A model generated the notes under the pieces. It was not told the origin of the DNA, did no database searches, and saw only the letters and a list, made by a program, of their open reading frames with translations. DNA of 44,776 bases from Paracoccaceae bacterium (lineage in GTDB: Bacteria > Pseudomonadota > Alphaproteobacteria > Rhodobacterales > Rhodobacteraceae). The stretch spans positions 1 through 44,776 of the forward strand of contig JAFIEF010000025.1 of NCBI GenBank assembly GCA_020832655.1. The letters run 5' to 3'. Shown here piece after piece: positions 16,034 to 44,776 of this stretch (positions are counted from its first letter, which is position 1; every line of letters starts with the position of its first letter). Both the position numbers and the translations under genes were made by a program.

Positions 16034-16111
16034 GCGAACCTCTCTATCTGCCCGTCATGGGCTTCATCTTGCCAAAAATACTCTGGGGGTGAATGGGGTC
16101 GCAGGCCCCGG

Positions 16112-18317: not shown

Positions 18318-20297
18318 CTATTGCGCCGCGACAGGGGCCGGATCGACCATCGCCACGATATCCATCATGATCTGGTTGAGCTGGAAATCCTTGGGGGTAT
18401 AGACCTGCGCCACGCCCATCGCGCGCAGGCGTCTGGCATCCTCTTCAGGGATGATCCCGCCCACGATCACCGGTATATCGCCCAGACCTTCGGCGCGCAT
18501 CAGGCGCATCAGCTCTTCCATCAGCGGCATATGGCTGCCCGACAGAATCGACAGCCCGACCACATGCGCGCCCTGGTCGCGCACTGCGGCGACAATCTCG
18601 CCCGGTGTCAGGCGGATGCCTTCGTAATGGATATCCATGCCGCAATCGCGCGCGCGCGCGGCAATTTGTTCGGCGCCGTTGGAATGCCCGTCCAGCCCTG
18701 GCTTGCCGACCACAAATTTCAGCCGTCGCCCCAGCTTGCTGCTGACCGCATCGACCGCCTCGCGCACCGGGTCCAGCCCCTCGGTGCGGTTCGAAGGCGC
18801 GCGGCTGACGCCAGTGGGGGCGCGATACTGCCCGAAAGCCGCGCGCACGGTTTCACCCCATTCGCCGGTCGTGGCCCCGACCTTCGCTGCGGCAATCGAG
18901 GCGGGCATGACATTGACACCCGAGCGCGCGGCCGCGCGCAGATCGGCCAGCGCCTGCTTCACTGCCGCTTCATCGCGCGCAGCGCGCCATGCTTGCAGCC
19001 GTGCGACCTGATCGGCCTCGGCCTCGGGGTCGCACACCATGATCGCGTCTTCCCCGGTGGTCAGGGGCGAGGGTTCGGTGGTGGTGAATTTGTTCACCCC
19101 CACAACCACCGTATCGCCCGACTCGATGCCCGAAATGCGCTCGGCATTGGCCTCGACAAGTCGCGATTTCATGTATTCGATGGCTTTGACCGCGCCCCCC
19201 ATATCATCGATACGCGCCAGTTCCTCGCGCGCGCCAGCCATCAGTTCGGCAACCTTGCGGTCCACGGCGGGGTTGTTGTCGAACAGATCATCGAATTCCA
19301 GAAGGTCGGTTTCGAACGCCAGCACCTGTTGCAGCCGCAGCGACCATTGCTGATCCCACGGGCGCGGCAGTCCAAGGGCTTCATTCCACGCCGGAAGCTG
19401 CAAGGCGCGGCAGCGGGCTTTCTTCGACAGCGTCACCGCCAGCGCCTCGATCAGGATACGGTAGACGTTGTTTTCCGGCTGCTGCTCGGTCAGGCCAAGA
19501 CTGTTGACCTGCACCCCATAGCGGAAGCGGCGGTATTTCGCATCCTCGATCCCGTAGCGTTCACGGCAGATCTCGTCCCACAGATCGACGAAAGCGCGCA
19601 TCTTGCACAGTTCGGTGACAAAACGGATGCCCGCATTCACAAAGAATGAAATCCGCCCGACCATCTGCGGGAAATGTTCGGTCGGCACCTTGGTCTTCAG
19701 ATCATCCAGCACCGCGCAGGCCGTAGCCAGCGCGAAGGCCAGTTCCTGCTGTGGCGTCGCGCCCGCTTCCTGCAAATGATAGGAACACACATTCATCGGG
19801 TTCCATTTCGGCAGATGCTCGCGTGTATAGGCCGCAACATCGGTGATCATGCGCAGGCTGGGTTCGGGCGGGCAGATATATGTCCCGCGCGACAGATATT
19901 CCTTGATCAGATCATTCTGCACCGTGCCGTTGAGCTTGCTGACATCCGCGCCCTGCTCCTCGGCCGCGGCAATATACAGTGCCAGCAACCACGGTGCGGT
20001 GGCGTTAATGGTCATAGAGGTGTTCATCTGCTCCAGCGGGATCTGGTCGAACAGCATCCGCATATCGCCCAGATGGCAGATCGGCACACCGACCTTGCCG
20101 ACCTCGCCCTTGGCAAGTTCATGGTCGCTGTCATAGCCGGTCTGGGTGGGCAGGTCGAAAGCCACCGACAAGCCGGTCTGCCCCTTGGACAGGTTGGTGC
20201 GGTAAAGCGCGTTAGAGGCGCGGGCCGTCGAATGGCCCGCATAGGTGCGAAACAGCCAGGGCTTGTCTTTGGCGGGGCGGGATGCAGTATCGCTCAT
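18318..20297 (-). CDS. ecm: Ethylmalonyl-CoA mutase (ethylmalonyl-CoA pathway)
   Basis: 659-aa B12-dependent mutase of the methylmalonyl-CoA mutase superfamily. It converts ethylmalonyl-CoA to methylsuccinyl-CoA, the defining step of the ethylmalonyl-CoA pathway used in place of isocitrate lyase for growth on C2 substrates. The N-terminal half has GLSVAFDLPTQTGYDSDHE and KLNGTVQNDLIKEY. The C-terminal cobalamin domain has GKPGLDGHSNGAEQ with the D-x-H-x-x-G ligand motif. The N-terminus lacks the long extension of the true methylmalonyl-CoA mutase at 1-1780, as in Ecm/MeaA proteins. The ATG at 20297 follows GAAAGG. Assignment as Ecm rather than another clade rests on similarity to MeaA-type sequences. 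Confidence 0.92.
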   Translation of the reverse strand: MSDTASRPAKDKPWLFRTYAGHSTARASNALYRTNLSKGQTGLSVAFDLPTQTGYDSDHELAKGEVGKVGVPICHLGDMRMLFDQIPLEQMNTSMTINATAPWLLALYIAAAEEQGADVSKLNGTVQNDLIKEYLSRGTYICPPEPSLRMITDVAAYTREHLPKWNPMNVCSYHLQEAGATPQQELAFALATACAVLDDLKTKVPTEHFPQMVGRISFFVNAGIRFVTELCKMRAFVDLWDEICRERYGIEDAKYRRFRYGVQVNSLGLTEQQPENNVYRILIEALAVTLSKKARCRALQLPAWNEALGLPRPWDQQWSLRLQQVLAFETDLLEFDDLFDNNPAVDRKVAELMAGAREELARIDDMGGAVKAIEYMKSRLVEANAERISGIESGDTVVVGVNKFTTTEPSPLTTGEDAIMVCDPEAEADQVARLQAWRAARDEAAVKQALADLRAAARSGVNVMPASIAAAKVGATTGEWGETVRAAFGQYRAPTGVSRAPSNRTEGLDPVREAVDAVSSKLGRRLKFVVGKPGLDGHSNGAEQIAARARDCGMDIHYEGIRLTPGEIVAAVRDQGAHVVGLSILSGSHMPLMEELMRLMRAEGLGDIPVIVGGIIPEEDARRLRAMGVAQVYTPKDFQLNQIMMDIVAMVDPAPVAAQ

Positions 20298-20391
20298 CTT
20301 GGGCCTTTCGCTCGCTCGGCAATCCATAGCGGCGCGCAGAAACGACGCGCAACTTTCTTACCGAAACAAGTGATTCAGGCGCAAGAAAATG

Positions 20392-20523
20392 TCAAGCCAA
20401 AATCGCTGCGATGCGGCGAAACCCCGCGTCCTGCCCCTTGGGCAATGTTGCCAGAAGGATCATCAAGTTGTGGCTGGCATCTTCCCCGATCAGCTTGCGC
20501 CAGACGAAACCTTCATCCGCGCC
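20392..20523 (-). pseudogene. 43-codon open frame without a start codon, partly inside the repeat
   Basis: The minus strand from 20523 to the TGA at 20392 reads GADEGFVWRKLIGEDASHNL then MILLATLPKGQDAGFRRIAA and ILA. The composition is protein-like, but a TGA lies immediately upstream and no ATG/GTG/TTG opens the frame near its start. The first part falls in the shared repeat. The copy at 44412-44602 encodes the matching MGFIWRKLIGD, there with an ATGATG start, and then diverges. It may be a gene remnant or a small gene with an unrecognised start. Function unknown. Confidence 0.4.
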
Positions 20524-20672
20524 TCACTTTCATCTTGCCCCAAATACTCTCGCCGAAGGCAACGGGCCGGAAGGCCCGCTTCCCTGGGCAGACAGGACCA
20601 AGGCGCTGCAGCCAGCGCCCTGCCCAAGCCGCAATGCAGCCAACTGCTTAGCTTGGTCGAGTGTCACTATGG
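20483..20672 (-). repeat. Dispersed ~190-bp repeat, copy B
   Basis: Read on the minus strand it aligns along nearly its whole length, by eye about four of five bases or better, with 44412-44602 on the plus strand. Shared landmarks in order: ATAGTGAC-CTCGACCA, AGCAGTTGGCTGCATTGCGG then CTTGGGCAGGG, the hairpin GCGGGCCTTCCGGCCCG, TGCCTTCGG-GAGAGTATTTGG, AAGATGAA, GGCGCGGATGA, CTGGCGCAAGCTGATCGGGG. It starts inside the last codons of the lytic transglycosylase gene and provides its TAA at 20648. Confidence 0.88.
20563..20578 (-). terminator. GC hairpin within repeat copy B
   Basis: Arms CGGGCC (20563-20568) and GGCCCG (20573-20578) around a GGAA loop, about 70 bases past the transglycosylase stop and followed on the minus strand by GAGAGTATTTGG. 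It is probably the transcription terminator of the tfoX-slt transcript. Confidence 0.55.
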
Positions 20673-21187
20673 CTTTGCTGTGCGCCGCGCTGCGGGCAAT
20701 CACGGCGCACCTCACGGTTGCGCAACCCGGTCGCAACCAGCATGCAGCGATCACGCGCTTCGTAGTAATAGCCGCGCGCATACCACATCACCGCGCGGTC
20801 AATATCGCCATCGGCGACCAGCCACGCGCCTTTCAGATAGCGCCCGGCATAGGTCAGGTTGATCTCTGGGTTCAGCAGGTCTTCAGGCGTGCCCTGAAAC
20901 CCCATCTGCCGGGCAGTCTGCGGCAAGATCTGCATCAGCCCCCAATAAGGACCATTGCGGGCATGGGCGCGGTAATCGCTCTCGCGCTGGATGACGCGGT
21001 GCAAAAGCGCCTCGGGCAGATCATGCTTGGCTGCATAGCGCTGGATCAGCGCGCGCATTTGCGGGGTTTCACCGGGGTAAAGCTGCGCATTGCTGGCTGC
21101 GGTGCGCGATGTCTCTACCGAGGCGGGCGCGCCACATGCCCCAAGCAGAGCCAGGAGCAGAAATGAAAACAACAGGCGGGGTGTCAT
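20648..21187 (-). CDS. Lipoprotein lytic transglycosylase (SLT domain)
   Basis: 179-aa protein with a lipoprotein signal (MTPRLLFSFLLLALLGAC, lipobox L-G-A-C, Cys18). An SLT-type catalytic domain follows: Glu in HRVIQRESDYR, then GPYWGLMQILPQTARQMGF and LLNPEINLTYAGRYL. It should cleave peptidoglycan from the membrane face. The C-terminus (REVRRDCPQRGAQQSHSDTRPS) is not part of the domain, and its last residues come from the repeat that begins at 20672. It starts three bases after the TfoX-C gene stop, so the two are an operon. Confidence 0.92.
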   Translation of the reverse strand: MTPRLLFSFLLLALLGACGAPASVETSRTAASNAQLYPGETPQMRALIQRYAAKHDLPEALLHRVIQRESDYRAHARNGPYWGLMQILPQTARQMGFQGTPEDLLNPEINLTYAGRYLKGAWLVADGDIDRAVMWYARGYYYEARDRCMLVATGLRNREVRRDCPQRGAQQSHSDTRPS

Positions 21188-43662: not shown

Positions 43663-44436
43663 ATGCGCAAGGCTCCCGACGCGTTTCGCACCATCAGCGA
43701 AGCCGCCGAGCTTCTTGACACGCCAGCACATGTGCTGCGCTTTTGGGAAAGCAAGTTCGCGCAGCTTAAACCCGTCAAGCGTGCTGGCGGGCGGCGCTAC
43801 TACCGCCGCAGCGATATCGACCTGCTGGCCGGTATCAAACTGCTGCTGCATGATCAGGGCATGACCATTCGCGGGGTCCAGAAGCTGTTGCAGGAAAAGG
43901 GCCGCCAGCATGTCGCCGGCCTTGCCCCGATCACGACCCCGGAACTGGTCGAGATCGAGGCAGGGACAGAAGCACATCTGTCTGACAGCGATGGCGCAAC
44001 GCCCGAACCAGCGACAAGCACCGACAAGGTCAGGCCGGAAATGCCCGCGCCGACGCCGGGCGCACAGCCGACCGGCATGTTGCAGGCGGCGGCTGTGGAT
44101 GACCCGCCGCCCGCCGCGCCGGTAGCGGCCAGCCATACACCCGAAGACGCGCCGCAAGGCACTGACGCAGACCCGCAGCCCGACCCTGCAACTGCATCCA
44201 TGTCAGGCGCAGAAGATGCGACAGCATCACCAGCACCACCAGCTGCCCGTGCCATCCCGGCATCGCCACGCGCGACGACAAGGTTGGCGCATCTGATCAG
44301 GACGCAACCGGTTGCGCAGCCTGACGTCCGCAAGATTGCCCCGCTGGCAGAGCGTCTGGCTGCCTTGCTGGCGCAGATGGCGCAGCGCGCCGCAGGTGAC
44401 GAGCTGCACGACTATAGTGACTCTCGACCAGGCTGA
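43663..44436 (+). CDS. MerR-family regulator with long disordered tail; 3' end supplied by a repeat
   Basis: 257-aa protein. Residues 5-85 form a MerR helix-turn-helix ([20 protein letters not shown], then [35 protein letters not shown]). Residues about 90-225 are Pro/Ala/Thr/Asp-rich and look disordered, unlike classical metal- or drug-sensing MerR proteins. A short helical stretch ([19 protein letters not shown]) follows. The last residues, YSDSRPG and the TGA, come from the repeat starting at 44412 and match the end of the lytic transglycosylase. It sits between ihfA and tRNA-Pro, a conserved place. Targets unknown. Confidence 0.9.
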
Positions 44437-44602
44437 GCAGTTGGCTGCATTGCGGCTTGGGCAGGGTGCAGTCTGCATCTCTTTGGCCCTATCTGCGCAG
44501 GGATGCGGGCCTTCCGGCCCGCTGCCTTCGGTGAGAGTATTTGGCGTAAGATGAAGTCAGGGCGCGGATGATGGGTTTCATCTGGCGCAAGCTGATCGGG
44601 GA
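44412..44602 (+). repeat. Dispersed ~190-bp repeat, copy A
   Basis: Plus-strand copy of the element at 20483-20672 (minus). It overlaps the last 25 bases of the MerR gene, then carries the GC hairpin at 44505-44522, the GAGAGTATTTGG...AAGATGAA tail and the CTGGCGCAAGCTGATCGGGG block. The frame [19 protein letters not shown] is readable in both copies in the same register, but there is no start codon for it. Nothing else was seen in the 263-base gap before the tRNA. Confidence 0.88.
44505..44522 (+). terminator. GC hairpin within repeat copy A
   Basis: Arms GCGGGCC (44505-44511) and GGCCCGC (44516-44522) around TTCC, about 70 bases past the MerR stop. It is probably the terminator of the yceD-to-merR transcript. 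Confidence 0.55.
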
Positions 44603-44699
44603 CAACTCCAGGCCGGAAAGCTGTTGCGGATTGGCCGCAAAATGCGCGAATTCGCTCTTGCCCTTGGGGCCAGATCGGTTAGAAAGCGCGCAATGGTTT

Positions 44700-44776
44700 C
44701 GGGCTATGGCGCAGTCTGGTAGCGCGTCCGTCTGGGGGACGGAAGGTCGCAGGTTCAAGTCCTGCTAGCCCGACCA
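44700..44776 (+). tRNA. tRNA-Pro (anticodon GGG)
   Basis: 77 bases. The acceptor arms CGGGCTA and TAGCCCG pair perfectly, the 3' CCA is encoded at the window's last bases, the anticodon stem is TCCGT/ACGGA with loop CTGGGGG giving anticodon GGG, and the T-arm reads GCAGGTTCAAGTCCTGC. Confidence 0.98.

Follow-up and report, generated by a model that had tools for sequence, protein, structure and literature searches.

Two unrelated genes with a common end

Why should two unrelated proteins of one Paracoccaceae bacterium share their last few residues? In the window, which was the whole stretch of DNA analysed (contig JAFIEF010000025.1, 44,776 nucleotides), the original prediction had attributed this to a repeat that started inside both genes and brought them a tail, a stop codon and a terminator hairpin, perhaps as a copied 3'-end cassette. 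The repeat in two inverted places was real: the copies at 44412-44602 (+) and 20483-20672 (-) were 88% identical over 190 bp, lay in opposite orientation and reached into the open reading frames of a MerR regulator and a lytic transglycosylase. The limits first given were corrected to 44413-44610 (+) and 20475-20671 (-), counting the terminal dinucleotides as part of the element. The main features were the following:

44413-44610 (+): copy A of the presumed MITE, from the alignment of 24 copies, terminus calls and the empty site in relatives
44413-44414 (+): terminal TA of copy A
44609-44610 (+): terminal CA of copy A, probably a decayed TA
20475-20671 (-): copy B of the presumed MITE, including its terminal dinucleotides CA and CA, from terminus calls, pairwise alignment and the empty site
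43663-44436 (+): MerR-family regulator (Pfam MerR_1), whose codons from 44413 on came from the element
44700-44776 (+): tRNA-Pro(GGG), the downstream neighbour of copy A, which anchored the empty-site comparison
20648-21187 (-): SLT-domain lytic transglycosylase (Pfam SLT), whose last 7 codons and stop came from copy B
18318-20327 (-): methylmalonyl-CoA mutase downstream of copy B, with the same neighbour in the relatives G001, G029 and G033

The element did begin inside two unrelated frames, one with a MerR_1 and the other with an SLT domain, and supplied the last residues and the stop of each. The MerR frame ended in HDYSDSRPG, in which Y-S-D-S-R-P-G and the stop belonged to the element, and the transglycosylase ended in QSHSDTRPS, with H-S-D-T-R-P-S as the element part. 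Among the 37 genomes of the genus (own genome included), the MerR protein had a match in 32 and the transglycosylase in 34 (a few of them weak), and 30 fetched loci were read per gene, again including the own one. The tail was found in 0/17 of the MerR relatives that were readable to the stop (17 of 29 loci, the other 12 running off the contig), and in 0/28 of the transglycosylase relatives, of which 28/29 could be read to a stop, located shortly downstream of EVRRDCP or a related form. Since no readable homologue without the repeat ended in the same tail, the cassette idea passed the refutation test that had been set for it. The tail as an ancestral protein sequence was ruled out, because homologues without the element had no tail.

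In the three nearest relatives (G033, G029 and G001) the MerR gene stopped exactly at the insertion point of the element, which was absent. Their proteins ended 11 residues after a shared Met, like the native part of the window protein, and the same tRNA-Pro followed. The stop at this empty site was TAG in G033 and G029 (CGC TAG in G029) and TAA in G001. By comparison, the original stop of the window gene was probably at 44413-44415. The transglycosylase site was also empty in these three genomes, with the same methylmalonyl-CoA mutase as the next gene. However, its sequence in G033 and G029 was ACA TAG and not CTAG, which counts against the CTAG target proposed below. In the relative G009, the transglycosylase ended on a TAG that was the left end of a diverged copy of the element. 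The transglycosylase insertion may be common to the own genome and G009 or independent in each: against L229, locus L011 ranked first of 24, narrowly (71.0 vs 69.5), and in L229 the mutase gene was not the neighbour.

As a whole, these loci were best explained by a non-autonomous MITE of ~198 bp, of the IS630/Tc1-mariner type and with a CTAG-like target, whose surviving copies lie between genes or in stop codons; we gave this reading a probability of about 0.78. Many copies, imperfect inverted ends, a C mostly preceding the end, empty sites and stops on the terminal TA were all read from the sequence.

Copies and ends of the element

A search of the own genome and its relatives confirmed that the repeat was multi-copy, far beyond the two copies of the window. 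The own genome (3.24 Mb, 121 contigs) gave at least 42 match rows at E<=10, a lower bound with 40 of 91 first-look candidates scored; some places had been split into two rows, and the weakest rows contained only the inner motif. Every one of the 40 fetched own loci held a match at E<=1e-4. In the multi-copy alignment 24 own loci reached from end to end of the element; two of them, L021 and L030, had lost inner parts, and L021 was also truncated by the end of its contig. The copies spanning both ends diverged by 8-28% from the window copy, which counts against the best explanation, and recent movement was therefore not read from them. Two loci, L014 and L017, had a common upstream flank and were not independent; duplication there may have involved a longer segment, element included. 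Within the genus, at least 18 of the 37 genomes (own included) matched the repeat at E<=0.001, mostly in its 3' half only, with 22 candidates scored per genome.

Beyond the genus, the phage and plasmid collections gave no match at E<=0.001, and Rfam gave none at the gathering score besides tRNA (best sub-threshold match E=0.41). A scan of genome contigs with the terminal pattern returned 4 matches, which lay in Ramlibacter, in Halomonas and in two MAGs from other groups, out of a collection that may omit records near the window's genome. In the accessible literature, which included few subscription journals, no paper that we came across dealt with this repeat or with its targeting of stop codons, and likewise there was nothing relevant to the element under the letters of its inner motif or under named alphaproteobacterial repeats.

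The two ends of copy A were placed by the copy alignment and the terminus calls:

44413-44430 (+): left end, TATAGTGACTCTCGACCA
44593-44610 (-): right end, read on the minus strand, TGGAGTTGTCCCCGATCA

The left end was sharp, with the own consensus C-TATAGTGACTCTCGACCA, and the right-end consensus on the other strand was TAGAGTTGTCCCCGATCAGC. Good copies from relatives in the genus had left ends like CTAGAGYGCNTTTCGAYCA, and one such copy had the right end CTAGCACTGTTCCTGATCAGC. The pattern TA-N11-GAYCA fitted left and right ends alike. In the 198-bp consensus the two ends agreed at 11 of their 18 outer positions, which made an imperfect inverted repeat; a single one of 20,000 shuffles was as similar, and none of 1,075 pairs of internal segments was. 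A repeat search of the two single window copies reported no terminal inverted repeats, because these copies were too diverged. Thus, what defines a MITE was present here: many dispersed short copies without a transposase gene, terminal inverted repeats (imperfect ones) and empty sites in relatives.

Dimensions were regular at a score of >=17/26. The left end lay 119-124 positions from the inner motif in 21 of 24 own termini, and the inner motif lay 52-57 positions from the right end in 34/34 own and 52-55 in 18/18 G009 termini. Some termini were weak (L175 and the left end of L185). The word GACTC was present in the own left-end consensus and, by eye, in none of the G009 or G036 left ends that were listed.

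Central hairpin, inner motif and gene context

Two further features were located inside copy A:

44504-44523 (+): central hairpin, with arms 44504-44511 and 44516-44523 and the loop TTCC
44535-44555 (+): motif GAGTATTTNNNGCAAGATGAA with one mismatch, from the genome motif search

At least 6 of the 8 hairpin pairs were kept at a fixed register in 70 of 79 copies, and among those 70 the fifth pair was G-C in 36, C-G in 29 and A-T in 3, which is covariation. Folding of the whole element was not unusual for copy A (z -0.39) and mildly so for copy B (z -1.97). The proposal that the repeat brings a terminator hairpin held in part. The hairpin was conserved, but no T run followed the stem, as an intrinsic terminator would have it, and the terminator pattern scan of copy A did not call the central stem, just another weak stem at 44461-44476.

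The motif GAGTATTTNNNGCAAGATGAA stood after the hairpin and also occurred outside the element. A slightly longer form had 70 sites in the genome at up to 3 mismatches, element copies included, and 0 in the reversed control; in the window, sites lay at 16063-16085 (-) and 44535-44555. In a set of 61 family genomes with one per genus, 11 contained exact GAGTATTTNNNNNAAGATGAA; the narrower GAGTATTTNNNGCAAGATGAA was present in 8 of 120 genomes. Both counts include the own genome, and the reversed control was 0 in both cases. Among the listed sites, the form was mostly uniform per genome (GCAAGATGAA, GAAAGATGAA or CAAAGATGAA), with G075 mixed. G061 had opposite-facing pairs of the motif ~40-70 nt apart. 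Lone copies with no MITE visible were seen in the own genome directly after a hairpin and T run (L068, L069) and directly after a CCTCCGGCGG stem (L063-L065). Across the family the distribution of forms was dialect-like, and the motif was possibly a 3'-end or uptake-type signal.

With both neighbouring genes called, 25 of 33 own rows comprised 17 convergent, 6 and 2 tandem and 0 divergent contexts. The 30 rows of G009, at least L234 and L235 being motif-only, comprised 21 convergent, 4 and 4 tandem and 1 divergent. The window background was 5 convergent pairs among 40 neighbouring gene pairs (by eye). Such a context suited a terminator role and equally suited plain avoidance of promoters. It was possible, if doubtful, that the element was a host-maintained terminator or REP-like repeat, spread once by transposition and kept at 3' ends for ending transcription, above all between convergent genes. 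The convergent neighbours and the covarying hairpin agreed with such a role, but the stem had no T run behind it and escaped the pattern scan, avoidance of promoters and genes accounted equally well for the context, and the exact coincidence with stop codons was not explained by termination alone.

Target site and stop codons

The ends and surroundings of the MITE suggested a possible target. At 67 of 104 good termini the base before the terminal dinucleotide was C. The terminal TA was kept at just 46 of the 104, and duplication of TA was therefore not directly visible at most sites; L240 had a clean CTAG at its left and right ends. CTAG was scarce in the window, with 9 occurrences observed vs 155 expected from base composition, or ~17-fold below. 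CA or TG stood at many decayed element ends, in keeping with a loss of CTAG by transition. In own and G009 DNA, with the surroundings of the element masked, 9 of 21 non-coding CTAG sites were stop codons (1/5, 4/10 and 4/6), vs 51 of 460 non-coding TA sites. The loci of congeners disagreed, with 3 stops among 42 non-coding CTAG sites, a set inflated by CTAG sites of tRNA-Pro. These small numbers fit CTAG targeting and the removal of insertions in genes, and the element seems to insert at CTAG/TA sites.

For the position of stops, termini were located from the inner sequence, with a robust run made without the first five terminal bases, and the nearest inward-pointing gene was recorded from codon-usage scores trained on long open reading frames of the window, not from annotation. 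The count covered the own genome, G009 and 8 loci of other relatives (L041, L054-L057, L060, L239 and L240), and some scored rows were motif-only sites with weak ends. G009 copies first retrieved as L042-L051 and L059 entered under new handles with different flanks, and L052 and L053 entered as L239 and L240. L058 and the non-G009 loci of one fetch were scored in neither the terminus nor the offset count, and L032, in which the motif was not located, was left out of the terminus count. Reported at 16, one of three thresholds, the count had 114 termini, 91 of them with a gene pointing in.

Twenty of these 91 genes stopped exactly on the terminal TA, and the remaining 24 offsets up to 12 nt away had 15 stops between them. 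At the loosest threshold, motif-only sites included, the figures were 20 vs 18 and the frame count given below was 26/38. In the terminus calls, the codon at offset 0 was TAG in 17 cases and TAA in 4. Of 70 copies that had a good terminus, 25 coincided with a stop (11/35 own, 12/27 in G009 and 2/8 in the others), to be compared with the masked shares of 9/21 for CTAG and 51/460 for TA. Counted by eye from the terminus calls, the coincidences were two-sided, with 15 on the left and 11 on the right. Where the element end read TAG or TAA, the protein was unchanged. A case of this kind was the NAD kinase beside the own copy L027, whose TAG stop was the right end of the element; the kinase was matched in 35 of 37 genomes, and 26 of the 29 fetched homologues aligned to the last residue, the other 3 differing only there. 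At own left ends no stop was found at 0 and four were found at +21 in the same frame, as predicted from an own left end that reads TATAG instead of TAGAG.

These four stops belonged to the four tail-bearing proteins of the own genome: MerR (YSDSRPG), the transglycosylase (HSDTRPS), an ABC-transporter-like protein (YGETRPS) and a thioesterase-like protein (NSDSQPS). The last two names were a reading of the sequences, and the thioesterase was compared with 3 homologues with different tails. It was very unlikely that gene ends had acquired tail, stop and terminator together, as one 3'-end cassette spread by copying or recombination whose peptide tail has a function. Four own genes did end in related element-derived tails, and all four copies carried a variant minus one T that gives the short tail; across all copies this variant was present in 11 of 24, which weakly hints at selection. 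Nevertheless, most copies added no residues: of 35 own copies with a good terminus, 4 gave a tail, while 7 others had a convergent gene whose stop was supplied by the right end of the element and which gained no tail. The orientation relative to the stop was two-sided and relatives managed without the tail. What stood of the cassette was that the repeat supplied tail and stop; its part as a transferred tail module fell. As for inversion by recombination, the two window copies were inverted relative to each other, but nothing else that was seen spoke for it. Random insertion into coding sequence with truncated genes, suggested by the start of elements within open frames, was rejected as highly improbable, because 23 of 27 genes running into the element did so in the frame of the terminal TA (threshold 16; a third expected) and homologues of MerR, the transglycosylase and the NAD kinase were not longer than the proteins compared.

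Candidate transposase and known systems

Insertion of IS630 at the TA in CTAG was reportedly the subject of Tenzen and Ohtsubo 1991, to judge by its title. In our set, 30 of the 37 genomes had IS630-family matches at E<=0.001, a loose threshold that also matched 8 of 14 control genomes, and 7 had matches above the curated cut-off. The own genome had 3 weak or broken matches, 0 over the cut-off, and no intact IS630 transposase with the element's ends was found. When IS630 elements of G004 and G005 were compared in 7 pairs, 6 aligned; 2 of them, both in G005, had CTAG at both ends, and the remaining aligned pairs had no CTAG on both sides.

Five degenerate IS630-type copies (L151, L153, L155, L158 in G009, and L159) had a common end beginning TAGAGCG. 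The L158 end was 16/19 identical (by eye) to the element end TAGAGCGCTTTTCGATCAA, and degenerate copies such as this one had the nearest ends; for the L158-type IS just one end could be placed. The search pattern was drawn from the ends that it then found, and we relied on the five ends being alike beyond the pattern. The control of 180,918 bases gave 188 loose matches at <=4 mismatches, including the element of G009 itself (L125) and one chance match (L086) with 1 mismatch. The assignment to IS630 was likely, and our confidence in it was held back because the ends were weak and the partner was missing.

The IS630/Tc1-mariner group thus resembled the element in its TA target with a preference for CTAG, in two G005 family members ending in CTAG and in one degenerate group with a similar end. 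In contrast to that group, the element had no transposase gene, and intact G005 IS630 had other terminal sequences. According to the available parts of the published accounts, ISY100 inserts almost only at TA, which is duplicated (PMC2170065), and MITEPsy1 duplicates CTAG or YTAA (PMC3189936). Precedents for such elements exist in the Coxiella QMITEs and RUP, again in the text available. QMITE1 and QMITE2 overlap the 3' ends of genes by 1-50 bp and in one case supplied a C-terminal extension (PMC5896051). They resembled our element as MITEs at gene 3' ends that can extend the C-terminus, but the host was unrelated and the coincidence with stop codons was not raised in the available text of the Coxiella account. 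RUP of pneumococcus, linked to IS630-Spn1, and CIR of Caulobacter/Brucella, which occur in alphaproteobacteria, are short, TA-ended, intergenic repeats by the available description (PMC2229807). The likeness to them was by this description and not by sequence, and CIR, unlike the element, have two arms with a GANTC motif.

Model of insertion at gene ends

A possible history of the element can be outlined. A transposase of the IS630/Tc1-mariner type would have excised it and reinserted it at a TA, for preference one inside CTAG, with duplication of the TA. CTAG is scarce in the genome, and a large share of the non-coding CTAG are amber stops, with C as the last base of the preceding codon. Selection would remove insertions inside genes, so that survivors would lie between genes or exactly in stop codons. 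A gene-facing end with TAG or TAA, as at right ends here and at left ends in relatives, would restore the stop and leave the protein unchanged. The left end of the own lineage, TATAG, would turn the stop into TAT, and read-through to a stop inside the element would give the S-D-S/T-R-P tail of 7 residues. The hairpin and the motif behind it would probably end or protect transcripts in a putative 3' UTR.

Since CTAG/TA is often a stop codon in this GC-rich genome, the element sometimes replaced the stop of a gene and added a tail without damage to the gene. Thus, the tail and stop were a by-product of the insertion site and of one altered end, and the element was an old multi-copy MITE that, given its target and its ends, can sit in stop codons without harm. 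More tentatively, this may be a transposon family adapted to stop codons, in which a CTAG target and outward TAG ends make insertion into an amber stop traceless for the protein. As a part of that reading, it is conceivable though doubtful that TAG, read outward at both ends in relatives, goes together with a hairpin and a lineage-specific 3'-end motif as a useful new 3' UTR.

For annotators, the case means that C-terminal tails common to unrelated proteins can be transposon ends. It also offers a countable reason for the gathering of small transposons at gene 3' ends in GC-rich bacteria, namely that their target word outside genes is often a stop. The reason for the 3' preference, seen at the 3' end in all affected functional genes by the QMITE authors, was called unknown in the available text of PMC5896051, and the stop-offset test is repeatable on other genomes. 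If the adaptation to stop codons were true, gene ends would be a low-harm niche for such elements, and the bias of other bacterial MITEs towards 3' ends, so far without a reason, would be accounted for.
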